This document shows, one piece after another, positions 2,948-64,000 of a stretch of DNA of 64,000 nt. Source of the stretch: Bacillota bacterium (GTDB taxonomy: Bacteria > Bacillota > SHA-98 > UBA4971). Within the stretch, counting starts at the first letter, position 1, and each line of letters begins with the position of its first letter. The translations under genes were made by a program, and so were the position numbers. The DNA is taken from the NCBI GenBank assembly GCA_024653485.1, contig JANLFY010000001.1, positions 292,160 to 356,159 on the forward strand. Direction: 5' to 3'. The notes beneath the pieces were generated by a model. It saw only the letters and a list, made by a program, of their open reading frames with translations. It was not told where the DNA came from and made no database searches.

Positions 2948-3958
2948 GTGCGGGAAGAATCTCGTGACCATCCCACTCTCAGGCGGTTTTGGGCCAACCC
3001 GGTCCATCGGCAGTGGGTCGCCGATGGATCTCTCATTGTGACGACGCTCATCTGGGGCGCCACTTTCGTGGTGGTGAAGGACATTGTCGCCAGGGTCGAC
3101 GCGGACGCTCTGGTGGCTGTGAGGTTTCTCATGGCGACCGCGCTCATGGCGGCGGCGGTCGCACCCAGGCTCAAGCGTATCACACTGAGGCTCGTGAGAG
3201 CCGGCGTCCTCGTGGGCCTCGCGCTGTTCGTAGGATACGCTTTTCAAACGCTCGGCCTCGAGCATACGAGCGCTTCGAAGGCAGGGTTCATCACCGGGCT
3301 CTCCGTGGTGCTCGTGCCGGTCCTGTCCACGGTCATCCTGAGGAGGCCGCCCGAGCGCTCAGCGGTCGTAGGTGTGGCATGTGCCACGGTTGGCCTCGCG
3401 CTTCTCACTCTCCGGCCGGGCGGCGGCCCTCTCTTTGAGATCGGGGATCTCCTCGTTCTCGTGGGAGCCGTGGCGTTCGGCCTTCACATCGTGGCGGTGG
3501 GAAAGTTCGCCCCGATGTTCGACGTGCCGCTTCTGGTCATGGTGCAACTCGCGACGGTGGCAGCCTCCGCCTTCGCTGTCGTAGGCCTGCGGTCGCTCGC
3601 GCTCGGCCAGCACGTGGAGATGCCGGTGTCTGCGCGAGACCTGGGAGGCACCGTGTTTCTTGCGTTGTTCGGAACGACGGCGGCGTTCTTCGTCCAGAAC
3701 GTCGCCCAGCGCTTCACCAGTCCGACACACGTGGCCATCGTGTTCGCGACGGAGCCCGTGTTCGCGGGGCTGTTCGGGTGGCTGCTCCTGGGGGAGCGGC
3801 TAGCGCCGGCCCAGCAGACAGGCGCCGCTCTCATCCTAGCGGGCATGCTCGTGTCCGAAGTGGAGTTCCCACGCAAGCACCCAAGCGCCGCGCAAGCCAC
3901 GCAGGACTCAGACCTAAGGGTGGAGCGGGAGGATCAGAACTGCGCCTCCGACCGGTAG
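2948..3958 (+). CDS. EamA/DMT-family inner-membrane transporter
   Basis: Ten-helix drug/metabolite transporter with two EamA repeats. Repeat one starts at LIVTTLIWGATFVVVKD and repeat two at GDLLVLVGAVAFGLHIVAVG. The second repeat ends with the typical FATEPVFAGLFGWLLLGE segment, and the C-terminus is a short polar cytoplasmic tail. GTG 2948 was chosen because AGGAGG lies 7 nt upstream at 2935-2940; an in-frame GTG at 2909 has no such site. It follows gatB by about 80 nt on the same strand. The substrate cannot be deduced; members export amino acids, nucleosides or other metabolites. Confidence 0.88.
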   Translation: MREESRDHPTLRRFWANPVHRQWVADGSLIVTTLIWGATFVVVKDIVARVDADALVAVRFLMATALMAAAVAPRLKRITLRLVRAGVLVGLALFVGYAFQTLGLEHTSASKAGFITGLSVVLVPVLSTVILRRPPERSAVVGVACATVGLALLTLRPGGGPLFEIGDLLVLVGAVAFGLHIVAVGKFAPMFDVPLLVMVQLATVAASAFAVVGLRSLALGQHVEMPVSARDLGGTVFLALFGTTAAFFVQNVAQRFTSPTHVAIVFATEPVFAGLFGWLLLGERLAPAQQTGAALILAGMLVSEVEFPRKHPSAAQATQDSDLRVEREDQNCASDR

Positions 3959-56612: not shown

Positions 56613-56650
56613 GCGCGATGCGCAGACTTTGGGGTAGGACGGTGATACTC

Positions 56651-56866
56651 ATGGCATCGAAGTCGCCTTCAAGAGACCCGCGCGTCCCGAAGAAGAGCGT
56701 AAAGAAAGTCACCAAACGGGCTTTGGAGGTCGACGAGAAGGACTTCCTAGACATGCTCATGACTGAGGTCAACGAGGACGAGGCGGCGGAGGTGCTGGGC
56801 AAGACCCCAGAGGAGGCTCTGTGGGTGGGTCCGGAGGACGAGCCGGAGGGAAACGGGCACGAGTGA
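56651..56866 (+). CDS. Small charged protein of unknown function
   Basis: 71-residue protein: a basic N-terminal half (MASKSPSRDPRVPKKSVKKVTKRA) and an acidic C-terminal half (VDEKDFLDMLMTEVNEDEAAEVL...EEALWVGPEDEPEG). No family recognised. ATG 56651 is preceded by GGTGAT; the frame is open to 56618. It lies 38 nt after the M3 gene and likely shares its mRNA. Confidence 0.55.
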   Translation: MASKSPSRDPRVPKKSVKKVTKRALEVDEKDFLDMLMTEVNEDEAAEVLGKTPEEALWVGPEDEPEGNGHE

Positions 56867-56980
56867 GATGGCCGCTCATGCTTCGCGTTCCGTCGACATA
56901 ACCGTGTCTGCCGGGGAATATCCATACAGCGGGCGGCTGCGAGTTCTTGGCTACCTGCTGCCGCTCGGGGGCTGGAAGCA

Positions 56981-57436
56981 ATGGGCGACATCTCCCCTGG
57001 CCCTCTCGACGAGAGGGTAATGGACCTCCTCGGCAGGCGAGTCGCGACCGTGGTGGTCGCCACGGTGGATGAGTGCGGCGATCCTTGGACGACCCCGGTG
57101 AACGCCATCACGTCCGTGTCCAGGAACACCATCCGGATGGCGCTCGAGCGACGCAGCGCAGCTCTTGTACACCTAGAGCGCCGAAAGAGCGTCATGATAG
57201 CCGTGCTCGACGAGGGGGACATCGCCGTCGGGATCAAGGGTCAAGCTGTCGTAGTGAAGCCTTCCATGGAAGCGAATCCTCTCATGGCCATGGTCGAGGT
57301 CGAAGTGTGCGGCGTCAAGGATGACTCCTGGCCGGATCTGGTGGTGTGCCAAGGTGTCCGAACGCGGCCCAGGCACGAAAGCATCGCGTTTGCCTTCAAG
57401 AGGGTGCTGGCTGAGCTCAGGTCCCAGCCTATGTAG
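56981..57436 (+). CDS. Pyridoxamine 5'-phosphate oxidase-like FMN-binding protein
   Basis: 151-residue split-barrel protein of the PNPOx-like group: RVATVVVATVDECGDPWTTPVNAITSVSRNTIRMAL, then ALVHLERRKSVMIAVLDEGDIAVGIKGQAVVV and a C-terminal RTRPRHESIAFAFKRVLAEL. These small members bind FMN or F420 and are usually oxidoreductases of unknown substrate, not vitamin B6 enzymes. ATG 56981 follows GGAAGCA. A T-rich stretch is absent before the dnaE promoter. Confidence 0.82.
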   Translation: MGDISPGPLDERVMDLLGRRVATVVVATVDECGDPWTTPVNAITSVSRNTIRMALERRSAALVHLERRKSVMIAVLDEGDIAVGIKGQAVVVKPSMEANPLMAMVEVEVCGVKDDSWPDLVVCQGVRTRPRHESIAFAFKRVLAELRSQPM

Positions 57437-57531
57437 GAGTGAGGTCGCGGGCCCGACGCTCCAAGCGCCCCGTCACGCTGTGGATTTCCACGCGCTGCTC
57501 TCGAGTGTGTGCCACTCTCAAGAAGAGGAAC

Positions 57532-57559
57532 TTGCCCACGGGTCAAGAACTGATATAAT
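57532..57559 (+). promoter_or_regulatory. Vegetative promoter of the dnaE operon
   Basis: TTGCCC at 57532-57537, a 16-nt spacer and a perfect TATAAT at 57554-57559. Predicted start near 57566, so a ~125-nt leader precedes the dnaE GTG. Confidence 0.78.
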
Positions 57560-57571
57560 CTGTAGTACCTG

Positions 57572-57595
57572 AATGGCGGGTATATGCCCGCCATT
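57572..57595. promoter_or_regulatory. 24-bp palindrome just downstream of the dnaE promoter
   Basis: AATGGCGGG (57572-57580), centre TATATG, CCCGCCATT (57587-57595): a perfect 9-bp dyad, also nearly symmetric at its centre. It lies about +6 to +29 relative to the predicted start. It could be a repressor operator or a 5' RNA hairpin. Confidence 0.7.
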
Positions 57596-57691
57596 GGCGT
57601 CTACTATCATCCGCGGTCCTCCCCGTCGCAAGGCGAGGAGGCGGCGACAGCGGACGCATGGGCCGACGTATGGGCGAAAGGGGAGGGGCAC

Positions 57692-60600
57692 GTGGGGAGC
57701 TTCGCTCATCTGCACTTGCATACCCAGTACTCGCTCCTCGACGGGGCGTGCAAGCTGCCTGATCTCATGGCGAGGGCTCGTGAACTCGGACTTGGCGCTT
57801 TGGCCATGACCGATCACGGGGTCCTCTATGGGGCCATCGATTTCTACAAGACAGCAGAAAAGCATGGCATAAAGCCGATCATCGGGTGCGAGCTCTACGT
57901 AGCGAAGAGAACCCGGCACGATCGCACCCCTCACGTGGACGACGACCAGCACCACCTGGTGGTCTTGGCGAAGGACGAAACAGGCTATGGGAACATAGTG
58001 AAGCTCTCGAGCATCGGGTTCGTGGATGGGTTCTACTACAAGCCCAGGGTTGACATGGAAGCGCTGGACCGACACAGAGAGGGCATCATCGCGCTCTCGG
58101 CTTGCCTGGCTGGGGAGGTGCCCTCCCTGATCCTTCAGGGAAACTACGAGGCAGCCAAGCGCAAAGCCGCGGAATACCGGGAGATTTACGGACCCGACGG
58201 GTTCTACCTCGAACTCCAGAGCAACGGCATCCGTGAGCAAGACCTGGTGAACGCCGCGCTCATGGACATGGCTCGGGAGCTGCGAATCCCTCTCGTGGCG
58301 ACCAATGACGTCCACTACGTGCGGCGCGAGGACGCCCGGGTGCACGACGTGCTCCTGTGCATACAGACAGGAAAGACCGTCGACGACAAAGACCGCCTTC
58401 GGTTTCCTACGGATGAGTTCTATCTCAAGTCCGCACACGAGATGCAGGCGGCTTTCAGGCACGTGCCGGAGGCGCTCGAGAACGCGCTCATCATCGCGGA
58501 GCGCTGCAACTTCAAATTCGAATTCGGGAGGTCCGCGGTCCCGGTCTTCGAGGTCCCGGAGGGTCACACCCAGGAGAGTTTCCTGCGACATCTCTGCGCG
58601 GAAGGGTTGAAGAAGAGGTACGACGAGGTAACCGGCGACCTGACCGCCAGGCTCAACTACGAGCTGGATGTCATAGTGAAGATGGGGTACGCTGGGTACT
58701 TCCTCATCGTATGGGACTTCATAAGGTTCGCTCGGGAGAAGGGCATCTACGTCGGTCCGGGTCGCGGATCAGCGCCTGGGAGCCTGGTGTCCTACGCCCT
58801 CGGCATCACTGATATCGACCCCATCAAGTACGGTCTCATATTCGAGAGGTTCCTCAATCCTGAACGAGTCACCATGCCCGACATCGACGTGGACTTCTGC
58901 TTCGAGCGGCGCGGCGAGGTCATCGATTACGTCACCAGGAAGTACGGTGCCGACAGGGTTGCGCAGATCATAACTTTCGGCACCATGGCTGCCCGGGCGG
59001 CCATACGAGACGTTGGTCGCGTGCTCAATTTCCCGTACAATGAAGTGGACAGGATAGCCAAGATGGTCCCCATGGAGCCGGGCACGACCATAGACAAGGC
59101 TCTCGCGTCGTCACCGGAGCTGAAAGCGGCCTACGATCAGGACGAGAAGACGAAAAACCTCATCGACACCGCGAGGGCAGTCGAGGGCATGCCCAGGCAC
59201 GCTTCGGTCCATGCTGCGGGAGTTGTCATCTCCAAGGACCCGCTTGTGGAACACGTGCCACTGTATCGGACGAGCGACGACGCCATAACTACCCAGTTCG
59301 CCATGGAGGATCTCGAGCAGATCGGCGTCCTGAAGATGGATTTCCTCGGCCTGCGCACCCTCACTGTGATCGGAAAGGCTGTGGAGATCATAAGGCACAC
59401 GCGGGGAGAGGAAGTCGACATAGGCAAGATCCCGCTGGACGACCGGGAAGTGTATGAGGCCCTCAGGCAGGGTGACTCCTTAGGTGTGTTCCAGCTGGAG
59501 AGCAGCCTCTTCCAAGGACTGCTGAGAGAAGTCAGGCCCACGTGCTTTGAAGACATCATCGCCATACTCGCGCTCGGCCGACCCGGGCCGATGGGGCGCA
59601 TACAGGATTTCGCCCAGCAGAAGCACGGGGAGAAGCCCGTGGAGTATCCACACCCCGACCTGGAGCCTGTCTTGAAGGAAACCTACGGTAACATGCTCTA
59701 CCAGGAGCAGGTCATGATGGTCGCAAGCACGCTGGCGGGCTTCACCCTAGGGGAGGCCGACATACTTCGGCGCGCGATGGGCAAGAAGAAGCCTGAGGTC
59801 CTCGCAGCCCAACGCGAGAAGTTCATGGAGGGCGCGAGGAGGCGCGGTGTGGACGAGGAGACAGCCGCCCAGATCTTCGATCTCATGGAATTCTTCTCGG
59901 GATACGGGTTCAACAAGAGCCACAGCGCGGCCTACGCCATGATATCGTACAGGACGGCCTGGCTCAAAGTGCACTACCCCGTGGAGTTCATGACCGCTCT
60001 CCTCACGAGTGTGACCGGCGCGTCCGACAAGGTCGCTTTCTACGTGGACGCGTGCCGTCAGAAGGGGATCGAGGTATTACCACCCGACATCAACGAGAGC
60101 TTCGAGGACTTTACGGCGGTCGGGGGGAGGGTTCGCTTTGGTCTGGCGGCCGTCAAGAACGTGGGGAGGGGGGCCGTTCAGGCGATCATCGACGCCCGCA
60201 AGAGCGGCGGCAAGTTCAGGTCCCTGTCGGATTTCTGTGAGAGGGTCGATCTCAGAGAGGTCAACAAGAAGGCCATAGAGAGCTTGATACGCTGCGGCGC
60301 ATTTGACTCTACGGGCGCGAGTCGCGCGGCGCTCCTCCTGGTGCTCGACTCCACACACGATGCGGCTTCGGCTGGAAGAAGGGAACGGGAGAAGGGGCAG
60401 GCATCATTCTTCGATCTCTTCGATGAGAAGGGGGAATTCGCCTCTAGCGAGGTTCCTCTGCCCTCTGTTCCCGAATTCGGCGAGCGGGAAAGGCTTGCCA
60501 TGGAGAAGGAGCTTTTGGGGCTTTACGTGTCGGGCCATCCCTTGCAGGGCGTTGCCGCGAAGCTGCGGGAGCACGTGAGTGCCCAGGTAGCTACGCTCGC

Positions 60601-61087
60601 GGATCACCCGGACGGAGATGAGGTGTCCGTCGGTGGGATCATAACGGCATTCCGGAAAACAGTCACGAAAAGCACCGGGCAGCCTATGGCCTTCTTTACC
60701 CTGGAGGACTTGACTGGCTCGGTGGAGGTAGTGGTGTTCCCGCGGGTGTACGAAGAGTGCTTCAGGTTCATAGCGGAGGATGCCATCGTCTTAGTGCATG
60801 GCAGACTCGACATGAAGGAAGAAGGGGCGAAAATCCTGGCCAACGTGGTGTTGCCATTCTCCCAGGAAATCGTGGTAATCCCCCTCGACGGCGAGACGAC
60901 CACGAGGGGTGCCATGGAGAAGCTCAAGAGGAAGCTCACGAGCGGTGGCCGAGGCGGTGACATCCCCGTCTTCCTCCGTGTGTCGACTTCCGTAGGAACG
61001 GCCGTGGTCTCGACTTCCCCTCAGGTATGGGTGTCCGAGGGAACAAAGGTTGACCTGCACTTGGATGTCCCCGGCGCCAAGCAGTAA
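57692..61087 (+). CDS. dnaE: DNA polymerase III alpha subunit (DnaE1 type)
   Basis: 1131-residue replicative polymerase. N-terminal PHP domain begins FAHLHLHTQYSLLDGACKL and keeps the His/Asp metal residues (VALSACLAGE-type region; TNDVHYV). The palm has GPGRGSAPGSLVSYALGITDIDP and the catalytic Asp pair in MPDIDVDFCF. The C-terminal OB fold is VGGIITAFRKTVTKSTGQPMAFFTLEDLTGSVEVVVFP. GTG 57692 has GGGGAGGGG just upstream and begins at the family start. The frame is open to ATG 57584, but that codon lies inside the palindrome. It leads an operon with accD, accA and pfkA. Confidence 0.95.
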   Translation: MGSFAHLHLHTQYSLLDGACKLPDLMARARELGLGALAMTDHGVLYGAIDFYKTAEKHGIKPIIGCELYVAKRTRHDRTPHVDDDQHHLVVLAKDETGYGNIVKLSSIGFVDGFYYKPRVDMEALDRHREGIIALSACLAGEVPSLILQGNYEAAKRKAAEYREIYGPDGFYLELQSNGIREQDLVNAALMDMARELRIPLVATNDVHYVRREDARVHDVLLCIQTGKTVDDKDRLRFPTDEFYLKSAHEMQAAFRHVPEALENALIIAERCNFKFEFGRSAVPVFEVPEGHTQESFLRHLCAEGLKKRYDEVTGDLTARLNYELDVIVKMGYAGYFLIVWDFIRFAREKGIYVGPGRGSAPGSLVSYALGITDIDPIKYGLIFERFLNPERVTMPDIDVDFCFERRGEVIDYVTRKYGADRVAQIITFGTMAARAAIRDVGRVLNFPYNEVDRIAKMVPMEPGTTIDKALASSPELKAAYDQDEKTKNLIDTARAVEGMPRHASVHAAGVVISKDPLVEHVPLYRTSDDAITTQFAMEDLEQIGVLKMDFLGLRTLTVIGKAVEIIRHTRGEEVDIGKIPLDDREVYEALRQGDSLGVFQLESSLFQGLLREVRPTCFEDIIAILALGRPGPMGRIQDFAQQKHGEKPVEYPHPDLEPVLKETYGNMLYQEQVMMVASTLAGFTLGEADILRRAMGKKKPEVLAAQREKFMEGARRRGVDEETAAQIFDLMEFFSGYGFNKSHSAAYAMISYRTAWLKVHYPVEFMTALLTSVTGASDKVAFYVDACRQKGIEVLPPDINESFEDFTAVGGRVRFGLAAVKNVGRGAVQAIIDARKSGGKFRSLSDFCERVDLREVNKKAIESLIRCGAFDSTGASRAALLLVLDSTHDAASAGRREREKGQASFFDLFDEKGEFASSEVPLPSVPEFGERERLAMEKELLGLYVSGHPLQGVAAKLREHVSAQVATLADHPDGDEVSVGGIITAFRKTVTKSTGQPMAFFTLEDLTGSVEVVVFPRVYEECFRFIAEDAIVLVHGRLDMKEEGAKILANVVLPFSQEIVVIPLDGETTTRGAMEKLKRKLTSGGRGGDIPVFLRVSTSVGTAVVSTSPQVWVSEGTKVDLHLDVPGAKQ

Positions 61088-61225
61088 CCGGTGATGGGTC
61101 CGGGAGTCAGGAAGGAGCCAAACCGGAGTGCAGAAGGATATTCGGGCGCGAGCTAGAAAACAGCATAAACATGAGTGGACATACTACATCCAGCGTCTTC
61201 CTGCTTGCAGAGGAGGAAACAGCGA

Positions 61226-61426
61226 ATGTGGACGGTCGTGTACATCGCGCCAAACAGGCCAGTGGCCGAAATGATGAAGGAGATGCTCGAAAAAGAGGGG
61301 ATGCTGGTGATGCTGCGCCCGGCCGGCGTGCCCCACATGGGCAACTCCGCCAATGTGGAGGTGCTCGTGCCGGAGTCTGAGGCCGAGGACGCACAGGAGC
61401 TTCTTACCGCTGCATTTGGAAGGTAG
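61226..61426 (+). CDS. DUF2007-like small protein
   Basis: 66-residue protein MWTVVYIAPNRPVAEMMKEMLEKEGMLVMLRP...GNSANVEVLVPESEAEDAQELLTAAF, matching the ferredoxin-like fold of DUF2007 (putative signal-transducing) proteins: hydrophobic strand, helix, strand, and a Val-rich strand. ATG 61226 has AGGAGG 9 nt upstream. It is followed 6 nt later by accD. Its role is unknown; position suggests a link to fatty-acid synthesis. Confidence 0.8.
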   Translation: MWTVVYIAPNRPVAEMMKEMLEKEGMLVMLRPAGVPHMGNSANVEVLVPESEAEDAQELLTAAFGR

Positions 61427-61432
61427 AGAGAT

Positions 61433-62299
61433 ATGCCTGCGATCAAGGATCTGTTCAAAGGGAAACAGAAGTACGTGACAGTCAAGCCCACGAGCGTCCA
61501 GACCGAGCAACCCGAAGGCCTGTGGACCAAGTGTTCGCAGTGTGGACAGCTCACATACACCAGGGAGCTTGCACGAAACCTGCTCGTGTGCCACAAGTGT
61601 GGGTTCCATTTCAAGCTGACGGCTGCACAGAGGCTTGCCATCACGCTCGATGAGGGCAGTTTCACGGAGCTCGACTCGAATCTCGCGTCCGTGGACCCGA
61701 TAGAGTTTCCCGGTTACGCTTCCAAGCTCGAAAGGACCAGGCAGACCACAGGCCTCGAGGAGGCAGCCGTGACGGGCCAGGGGACGATAGGCGGCTACCC
61801 GGTCATGATAGGCGTGATGGACTTTTCGTTCATAGGGGCGAGCATGGGATCGGTCGTGGGGGAGAAAGTGGCGCGGCTCTTCGAAAGGGCAACGAGGCAA
61901 CGCATCCCCGTGGTGATGTTCAGCGCCTCCGGCGGCGCGAGAATGCAGGAAGGTGTGCTGTCGCTGATGCAGATGGCCAAGACTAGCGCTGCTTGCGCTC
62001 GCATGTCTGAGGCAGGCGTCCTCTACATCTCGGTGCTTACGAATCCCACGACCGCGGGGGTGCTCGCCAGCTTCGCGTCTCTCGGTGACATCGTGATCGC
62101 CGAGCCGGGTTCGCTCATAGGGTTCACGGGCCAGAGAGTGATCGAGGAGACCATAAGGCAGAAACTGCCGCCCGGTTTCCAGAGCGCTGAGTTCGTCCTC
62201 GAGCACGGCATGATAGACATGATCGTCCAACGGCGAGACATGAAGAAGACCCTCACTTCGCTGCTTGCGCTCCATGAGAGGAGGCATGAAGCGGGATGA
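61433..62299 (+). CDS. accD: Acetyl-CoA carboxylase carboxyltransferase subunit beta
   Basis: 288-residue carboxyltransferase beta subunit making malonyl-CoA. Zinc ribbon WTKCSQCGQLTYTRELARNLLVCHKCGFHF at residues ~24-54, then crotonase-fold core with GMDF-type strand, SASGGARMQEGVLSLMQMAK and GFTGQRVIEETIRQ. Ends in a start overlap (ATGA) with accA. ATG 61433 follows a GGAAGGTAGAGAG stretch. Confidence 0.95.
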   Translation: MPAIKDLFKGKQKYVTVKPTSVQTEQPEGLWTKCSQCGQLTYTRELARNLLVCHKCGFHFKLTAAQRLAITLDEGSFTELDSNLASVDPIEFPGYASKLERTRQTTGLEEAAVTGQGTIGGYPVMIGVMDFSFIGASMGSVVGEKVARLFERATRQRIPVVMFSASGGARMQEGVLSLMQMAKTSAACARMSEAGVLYISVLTNPTTAGVLASFASLGDIVIAEPGSLIGFTGQRVIEETIRQKLPPGFQSAEFVLEHGMIDMIVQRRDMKKTLTSLLALHERRHEAG

Positions 62300-63351
62300 T
62301 AAACCTCACGCTGGAATTCGAGAAGCCCCTTGTGGAGTTGGAGAAGAGGATCGAGGAGCTCCGGAACTTCAGCCAAGAAAGGGGCATCGATCTTTCCGAC
62401 GAGATCGCCACTCTCGAGAAGAAGGCTGAAGCGCTGCGTCGCGAGATCTTTGACAACCTCACCCCCTGGCAGCGCGTGCAGATCGCGCGCCACCCGAGAA
62501 GGCCAACGACCCTCGACTACATCGGCCTCATCTTCGACGAGTTCATCGAGCTCCATGGCGACCGGGCTTTTCGAGACGACGGCGCCATAGTCGGTGGCCT
62601 GGCGAGCATCGACGGCAGGCCCGTCACTGTGGTCGGGACGCAGAAAGGTCGCGACACCAAGGAGAACCTCGCAAGGAACTTCGGGATGCCTCACCCCGAG
62701 GGGTACCGCAAGGCCTTGCGGCTCATGAAACAGGCCGAGAAGTTCCACCGCCCGGTCGTGTCGTTTGTGGACGTCGTGGGGGCGTATCCCGGGGTTGAGG
62801 CGGAGGAGCGCGGCCAAGGCCAGATCATCGCGCGCAACATAGAGGAGCTTTCCAGGCTGGCCACGTGCATCGTGGTGGTCATAACCGGCGAGGGAGGCAG
62901 CGGAGGCGCGCTGGCGATAGGTGTTGGCGACAGGCTCCTCATGCTTGAGAACGCATACTTCTCCGTCATCTCCCCGGAGGGGTGTGCCGCGATCCTGTGG
63001 AAGGACGGATCCAGGGCTCAGGAGGCTGCTGAAGTGCTAAAGCTTACGGCGCCTGACATGAAGAGACTTGGGATAGTGGATGAAGTGCTGCCGGAGCCGA
63101 AGGGGGCCGCTCACAAGGACCGGGAAGGAACGGCTCGCGTCATCAAAGAGGCTCTCATAAGGAGCATAGACGAGCTTTCGGGGATACCACCCCGCAGGCT
63201 CGTCGAGAGGCGGTATGCGAGGCTCCGGAGGATAGGGGAGTTCGTGACGCGCGAGGCCGCGCAGCAGGAATTCGCGGAGGCCGCCTCGGCCGGAGGGGAC
63301 GTGTTGCGGGTGGCGGGACCCGCCGGGAACAGGGGGGAATCCGGACGTTGA
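62296..63351 (+). CDS. accA: Acetyl-CoA carboxylase carboxyltransferase subunit alpha
   Basis: 351-residue alpha subunit. N-terminal helices [18 protein letters not shown], then [52 protein letters not shown], and [40 protein letters not shown], all conserved. The C-terminus is about 30 residues longer than usual, with a Gly/Ala-rich tail. ATG 62296 overlaps accD by 4 nt. Its stop overlaps the start of pfkA (TTGA). Confidence 0.95.
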
Positions 63352-64000
63352 AGCGGATAGCGGTTCTCACAAGCGGGGGCGACGCTCCGGGCATGAACGC
63401 GGCGATAAGGGCGGTCACCAGGTGCGCCATTTGTCATGGGATGTCCGTGGTGGGGGTGAATCGAGGGTACCAGGGTCTTGTCGAGGGAGACATGTTCGAC
63501 ATGTCATCTCGCAGCGTGGGTGACATCATCCAGCGTGCCGGCACGATCCTGAGGTCCGCGAGGTCGGAGGAGTTCATGACAGAGGCCGGGCGCAGAAAGG
63601 CCTTGGACCAGATGTCGAGGCGCGGGGTAGAGGCTCTGGTGGTCATTGGAGGCGACGGCACGTTCCGTGGGGCTTGCGCGCTTGCGGGCATGGGTGTTCC
63701 TGCTGTGGGGATTCCCGCAACCATTGACAATGACATCGCGTTCACCGACTACTCGCTCGGCTTCGATACCGCGGTGAACACCGCTGTCGACGCGATCACG
63801 AAGATTCGCGACACCGCAAGCTCCCACGGGCGGAGCAACGTAATAGAGGTCATGGGCCGCGACACCGGTCACCTGGCACTGGCGGCCGGCGTGGCGGGAG
63901 GGGCTGAGTACATCCTCATCCCGGAGGTGCCCTTCGACCTGGACTCCATGTGCGAGGGAATCACGGCGGGCTACAGACGAGGAAAGACTCATAGCATAAT
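63348..64000 (+). CDS. pfkA: 6-phosphofructokinase (3'-truncated by window edge)
   Basis: First 217 codons of an ATP-type PfkA. TTG 63348 starts [25 protein letters not shown], the phosphate-binding loop; [10 protein letters not shown] binds nucleotide and PATIDNDI holds the catalytic Asp. [26 protein letters not shown] follows. The TTG overlaps the accA stop by 4 nt and has AGGGGGG about 10 nt upstream. It links glycolysis to the accDA/dnaE transcription unit, a common order in Bacillota. The end lies outside the window. Confidence 0.93.

Follow-up and report, generated by a model that had tools for sequence, protein, structure and literature searches.

Operators of the CRP type are bound by dimers and consist of two half-sites around a 6-bp spacer. 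In the Bacillota, FapR is the known sensor of malonyl-CoA, and stem-loops at the very 5′ end of bacterial messages – those of the ompA and aprE type – protect the mRNA that carries them. The element described here, a block with dyad symmetry at the dnaE promoter of a Bacillota bacterium, has traits in common with each of these systems. It lies in a stretch of 64,000 nucleotides to which we refer as the window. Taken alone the finding is of moderate weight, operators and 5′ hairpins being common kinds of element.

The dnaE promoter and its dyad

The features of the locus are collected in Table 1. Beyond the window the same contig continues with genes for pyruvate kinase, a class II aldolase and a second phosphofructokinase (Pfam PK, F_bP_aldolase and PFK), and from gene order and spacing we infer a single transcript from dnaE through the glycolytic genes. 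A Pfam scan of the operon genes and of four upstream genes revealed no regulator, and a literature search on the dnaE-acc-pfk operon found nothing on point. Upstream of dnaE, at 56618-56866 of the window, is the gene for a small charged protein of 82 amino acids without a Pfam match, a relative of which stands directly before dnaE at another locus (L020).

Table 1. Features of the dnaE promoter region and operon (window positions)
Feature	Position	Strand	Basis or remark
dnaE operon promoter	57527..57559	+	10/12 sigma-70 match, 16-nt spacer, TG ahead of -10
Predicted transcription start	57565..57567	+	placed from the -10 position only
Conserved block, 18-pair imperfect dyad/hairpin, GTAG...CTAC around the 24-bp core	57562..57604	+	6/6 genus genomes
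24-bp core palindrome	57572..57595	no strand	sequence; RNA fold -16.5 kcal/mol, z -3.9
Unconserved remainder of 5′ leader	57605..57679	+	mean ungapped identity 46% just past the block
Shine-Dalgarno-like GGGGAGGGG of dnaE	57680..57688	+	read from sequence; region conserved in the family
dnaE, DNA polymerase III alpha with PHP domain, likely GTG start	57692..61087	+	Pfam PHP, DNA_pol3_alpha, finger, HHH_6, OB
DUF2007 protein, start uncertain	61175..61426	+	Pfam PF09413
accD	61433..62299	+	Pfam Carboxyl_trans, Zn_ribbon_ACC
accA	62296..63351	+	Pfam ACCA
pfkA, extends beyond the window	63348..64000	+	Pfam PFK

The region 56800-57800 holds a sole sigma-70-like promoter, TTGCCC-16-TATAAT with a TG extension, which has the form of an extended -10 sigma-A promoter: in such promoters TGnTATAAT is preceded at 16-18 nt by a -35-like hexamer, and the -10 here reads TGATATAAT. 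The -35-like TTGCCC (57532-57537) overlaps a GGAACTT (57527-57533); AACTGATA occupies 57548-57555 and TATAAT 57554-57559. The combination GGAACTT-N14-AACTGATA occurs exactly, once per genome and always upstream of dnaE, in all 13 genomes of the family sample (six of the window's genus and seven of a sister genus), and this core may hide a second recognition site. TATAAT itself is retained in 12 of the 13; the remaining genome (G006) has TACATC and still keeps the core. The pair GGAACTT and CTGATA resembles an ECF-type promoter; an alternative-sigma regulon was rejected, as each genome has the pair at dnaE alone and, at two mismatches, about as many matches as there are for controls. Transcription is predicted to begin near 57566-57567, the usual 7-8 nt past the -10, which would place the dyad at about +6. 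In several genomes of the sister genus (L012-L019) a terminator-like hairpin, GGCGGGTG...GCCCGCC and then TTTTT, lies ahead of the dnaE promoter.

The initial annotation drew attention to a 24-bp palindrome with perfect 9-bp arms, 12 nt after a perfect TATAAT, and the sequence confirms it: GGAACTTGCCCACGGGTCAAGAACTGATATAAT is followed by 12 nt and then by AATGGCGGG-TATATG-CCCGCCATT, the centre of which also pairs save for one T.G. The dyad extends further than was noted at that time. GTAG (57562-57565), which begins 3 nt past the TATAAT, pairs with CTAC (57601-57604), where conservation stops, and the result is a block of 43 bp with the palindrome at its core. A 9-bp dyad by itself is not rare in the window, which has eight with loops of 3-8 nt (two of them overlapping), where 20 dinucleotide shuffles averaged 2.55 and the richest of them also had 8; the exact dyad pattern, with up to three mismatches, is expected 0.05 times per window. 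Positions 3003, 9548, 17507, 38565, 49549 and 50197 also hold perfect dyads of 9 bp, their loops 4-8 nt long.

What marks this dyad as more than chance is its conservation in all six genomes of the genus. From the -10 through CTAC the mean pairwise identity is 90% (lowest pair 84%), and that of the promoter is 85%, the two forming a single unbroken conserved stretch. Identity is 40% over the 60 nt upstream and 46% over some 60 nt downstream (ungapped comparisons and so lower bounds), and 57% on average at fourfold sites of dnaE in the same genomes (43-63% when the close pair L006/L007, at 90%, is set aside). Within the block the unpaired flanks TACCTG and GGCGT are likewise conserved, the 6-bp centre varies in its letters (TATATG, TATAAG, CATTTG, TATTGG) at constant length, and GTAG and CTAC each stand 6 nt from the core arms in five of the six species; the window is the odd one among the six, with one additional A before ATGGC. 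That the palindrome arose by chance, or was inherited without function, is very improbable: the commonness of 9-bp dyads in the window and the absence of the site outside the genus would be in keeping with such an origin, but six species have retained the dyad through a divergence that changed fourfold sites and flanks. As judged from its conservation, the block is probably under selection and a real control switch.

The initial annotation had named loss of the dyad where the promoter is kept as grounds for abandoning its proposal. Such loss separates the two genera, in that 0 of 7 genomes of the sister genus have the site and all seven retain the promoter core; within the window's genus (6 of 6) it does not occur. 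The same comparison bears on a reading that assigns the block to the promoter proper: as an initially transcribed sequence it would have been selected, together with the core, for its effect on pausing or promoter escape, and would call for no dedicated regulator. The continuity of promoter and block, and the exactness of the core throughout the family, would suit such a role. Nevertheless, because the sister genus has the core without the block, the promoter does not require it, and we consider this explanation unlikely.

The site is also unique. Pattern and structure-aware searches of each genus genome found no second copy upstream of other operons, and the suggestion that operons such as fab might share the dyad gained no support. 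A model combining structure and sequence recovered the dnaE site in all six genus genomes (E <=3.9e-15; 61 genomes searched), and the next match in them, the opposite strand of the dnaE site aside, had an E value of 0.07. At E values up to 10 the model returned weak matches in other genomes, the best of which (G023) reached 0.0015, a value that applies per genome with 61 searched; those outside the genus we judge to be chance. Scanned for the arm pattern, the window's own genome yields a single perfect match and, at up to three mismatches, 354 matches against 421 for the reversed control; GTAGTACCTGATGG, with up to two mismatches, is not commoner than its reversed control in most genomes. A scan of genome contigs gave one member of the genus (L048, taken to be the same genome as G001), the remainder being distant Bacillota. 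Occurrence once per genus genome, at dnaE only, rules out both a regulon-wide operator and a dispersed repeat.

A possible operator or RNA hairpin

As RNA the block is predicted to fold well. Positions 57561-57610 give -24.1 kcal/mol (z -4.1), a value matched by none of 200 shuffles, and the 18-pair consensus fold gives -26.7 kcal/mol, with GUAG/CUAC at its base, the 24-nt core at its top and small internal loops between; the hairpin and the conserved block share the same end. The entire 124-nt leader is unremarkable (z -1.2). An intrinsic terminator or attenuator was rejected, there being no terminator-like site – no GC-rich hairpin with a T run – in 56800-57800. So was a known riboswitch or RNA leader: within 57400-57760 no Rfam match attained its gathering score, and the sole sub-threshold one, rpfG, scored 13.8 against 75.9 bits on the opposite strand.

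Among the 18 pairs thirteen are invariant, three carry one-sided changes that still pair in RNA (AU/GU, GC/GU and UG/CG) and two are broken in one species each; compensatory, two-sided changes were found in none of the 18, which with few species is a weak test. A stem maintained by pairing alone would be expected to have gained compensatory changes at such divergence. Because so many pairs are invariant, and none has changed on both sides, it seems that the sequence, rather than pairing alone, is recognised, be it as DNA or as RNA.

A stem-loop at the extreme 5′ terminus of the dnaE message, either a target for an RNA-binding protein or a shield of the long operon mRNA against 5′-end-dependent decay, is a serious possibility, though on balance we doubt it. 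The low folding energy of the hairpin and of its core (-16.5 kcal/mol), the common end of hairpin and conservation, and the survival of pairing at three of the five variable pairs all speak for such a structure. They are offset by the lack of compensatory changes, by the two broken pairs, by the ordinary fold of the full leader and by the Rfam result; moreover, the outer GUAG would fall outside the RNA if transcription starts at 57565-57567.

On the strength of the sequence we favour a dedicated DNA operator over the transcription start of the dnaE operon, a tentative choice to which we give a shade under even weight. The preference stems from the symmetry of the outer arms, which are equidistant in five of the six species, a regularity for which an RNA with internal loops has no use, and from the place of GTAG just behind the TATAAT, where it is expected to be untranscribed; the transcript thus probably starts within the dyad and leaves part of it upstream. 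The two ATGGCGGG half-sites that flank the 6-bp spacer of free sequence would be recognised by a DNA-binding protein in dimeric (or tetrameric) form, perhaps with additional contacts at GTAG/CTAC. At the dnaE-acc-pfk operon its binding would prevent the open complex from forming or the polymerase from escaping the promoter. We know of no motif that matches this half-site. Several observations count against an operator: the single copy per genome, the lack of a candidate regulator in the genes scanned, the sister genus that keeps the promoter without the block, the conservation of TACCTG and GGCGT, which plain dyad recognition would leave unexplained, and two variable pairs whose changes are G.U-compatible and so favour RNA. 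The original proposal of an operator or hairpin over the start of dnaE-DUF2007-accD-accA-pfkA stands in so far as the dyad is selected and can fold; between the two forms the sequence does not decide.

A bolder version of the operator reading, somewhat unlikely in our estimation, is that a genus-specific regulator that binds nowhere else in the genome controls the dnaE, fatty-acid and glycolysis operon via the 43-bp dyad, thereby coupling the capacity for replication to carbon flux. If this were true, one switch would govern the replicative polymerase, entry into fatty-acid synthesis at its committed step, and glycolysis in both its upper and lower parts. How bacteria match replication to metabolism is an open question, and a conserved single-copy site on an operon of such content provides a bait of known sequence for isolating the factor.

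The block was also considered as coding sequence. An ATG in the left arm, present in all six species, might open a leader peptide (MAGI-PP--ST), and five of the eight variable block positions are third codon positions. This we regard as scarcely credible: there is no Shine-Dalgarno sequence ahead, most third positions are invariant, and the reading frame is a 61-78 aa ORF out of the dnaE frame in three species and open into dnaE in the other three, so that the leader peptide was rejected on the disagreement of ends and frames. Among the window's ORFs in the dnaE frame, the longest does begin at the ATG of the centre, as first described. The longer DnaE drawn from this ATG had to be given up, given that three of the six species have AAG, TTG or TGG in its place and that only in the window's genome (1 of 6) is the ATG in frame and stop-free to dnaE.

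An in-frame stop in dnaE of related families

A separate observation, made outside the window, concerns the replicative polymerase gene itself and is possibly a more surprising and weightier lead than the promoter block. In families f2, f3, f63 and f73 the 17th codon of dnaE is an in-frame stop, situated in the metal-binding motif HLHTQYSLL-stop-x-DGA. Of the 398 phylum genomes sampled, 13 have it (loci L128-L140, in G186, G092, G324, G280, G257, G210, G160, G234, G127, G016, G014, G013 and G015): all 4 of the class members that do not belong to family f1, and 9 of 12 genomes of another class, with 0 of 3 in f38. The window's family is without it, the homologous place being 57737-57739.

The stop is TGA at nine sites and TAG at four, with no TAA, and the preceding codon is CTG in nine and CTT in four. 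Behind CTG the codon after the stop is CTG (2), ATG (3), GTG (2), TTG (1) or CCG (1), and behind CTT it is CTA (2) or CTT (2); GAC or GAT then follows. In most of the 13 the codons that flank the stop are alike at positions 2-3, being similar codons of the Leu type. Synonymous choice is constrained just before the stop (TAC 13/13, TCC 12/13, CTC 10/13) and not so further upstream. In all 13 the frame stays open past the stop for 500 codons or more, a span limited by the ends of the loci.

Presence in thirteen genomes makes an assembly error unlikely, and the stop is a candidate for a natural stop-hop or readthrough site. A ribosome hop of 6 nt would yield the normal YSLLDGA, and readthrough a product longer by two residues. 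Where the next codon is CTT, CTA or CCG, translation is unlikely to restart there. In many of the 13 the predicted fold of the roughly 60 nt at the start of dnaE pairs a G-rich Shine-Dalgarno stretch, or GAGGGAG, with the CTCCCTC just before the stop; such pairing may mask initiation or stimulate recoding. According to the part of a review available to us (PMC5009743), no natural in-frame stop-hop was known, and our literature search on dnaE recoding found nothing on point.

Likeness to known systems

FapR is encoded in all 13 family genomes (NF003359 above cut-off). For comparison we used the boxes upstream of the family's fapR genes together with fapO as given in the available part of PMC12281612, where the B. 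subtilis site is TTAGTACCTAGTCTTAA. The dnaE operon holds accDA, which makes malonyl-CoA, and GTAGTACCTGAT in the block resembles the left half of that B. subtilis fapO; the right half is missing and reads GGCGG instead. Set against the 17-bp inverted repeat TTAGTA-N7-TACTAA, the block has the left half alone (TAGTACCTGAT). FapR-type boxes stand before fapR in those of the loci L171-L183 that reach far enough, for example TTTAGTATCTGCTACTAAG (G012), and the fapR promoter of the window's own genome (G000, L176) has the complete box ATTAGTAGCAGATACTAAT. Since that promoter carries the complete box and the block one half, the block is not a fapO site: a complete FapR box at dnaE is ruled out by the absent right half, even though the fapR gene is present.

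The likeness to stem-loops of the ompA and aprE type lies in a stable hairpin on a long mRNA, a few nucleotides from where its 5′ end is predicted. The dnaE block differs from these in that its sequence is itself conserved, free of compensatory changes, and in that part of its dyad is perhaps untranscribed. From CRP-type operators it departs in having one site per genome and a half-site that matches no motif known to us; it resembles them in its architecture, two inverted half-sites around a fixed 6-nt spacer of free sequence, set over the transcription start.
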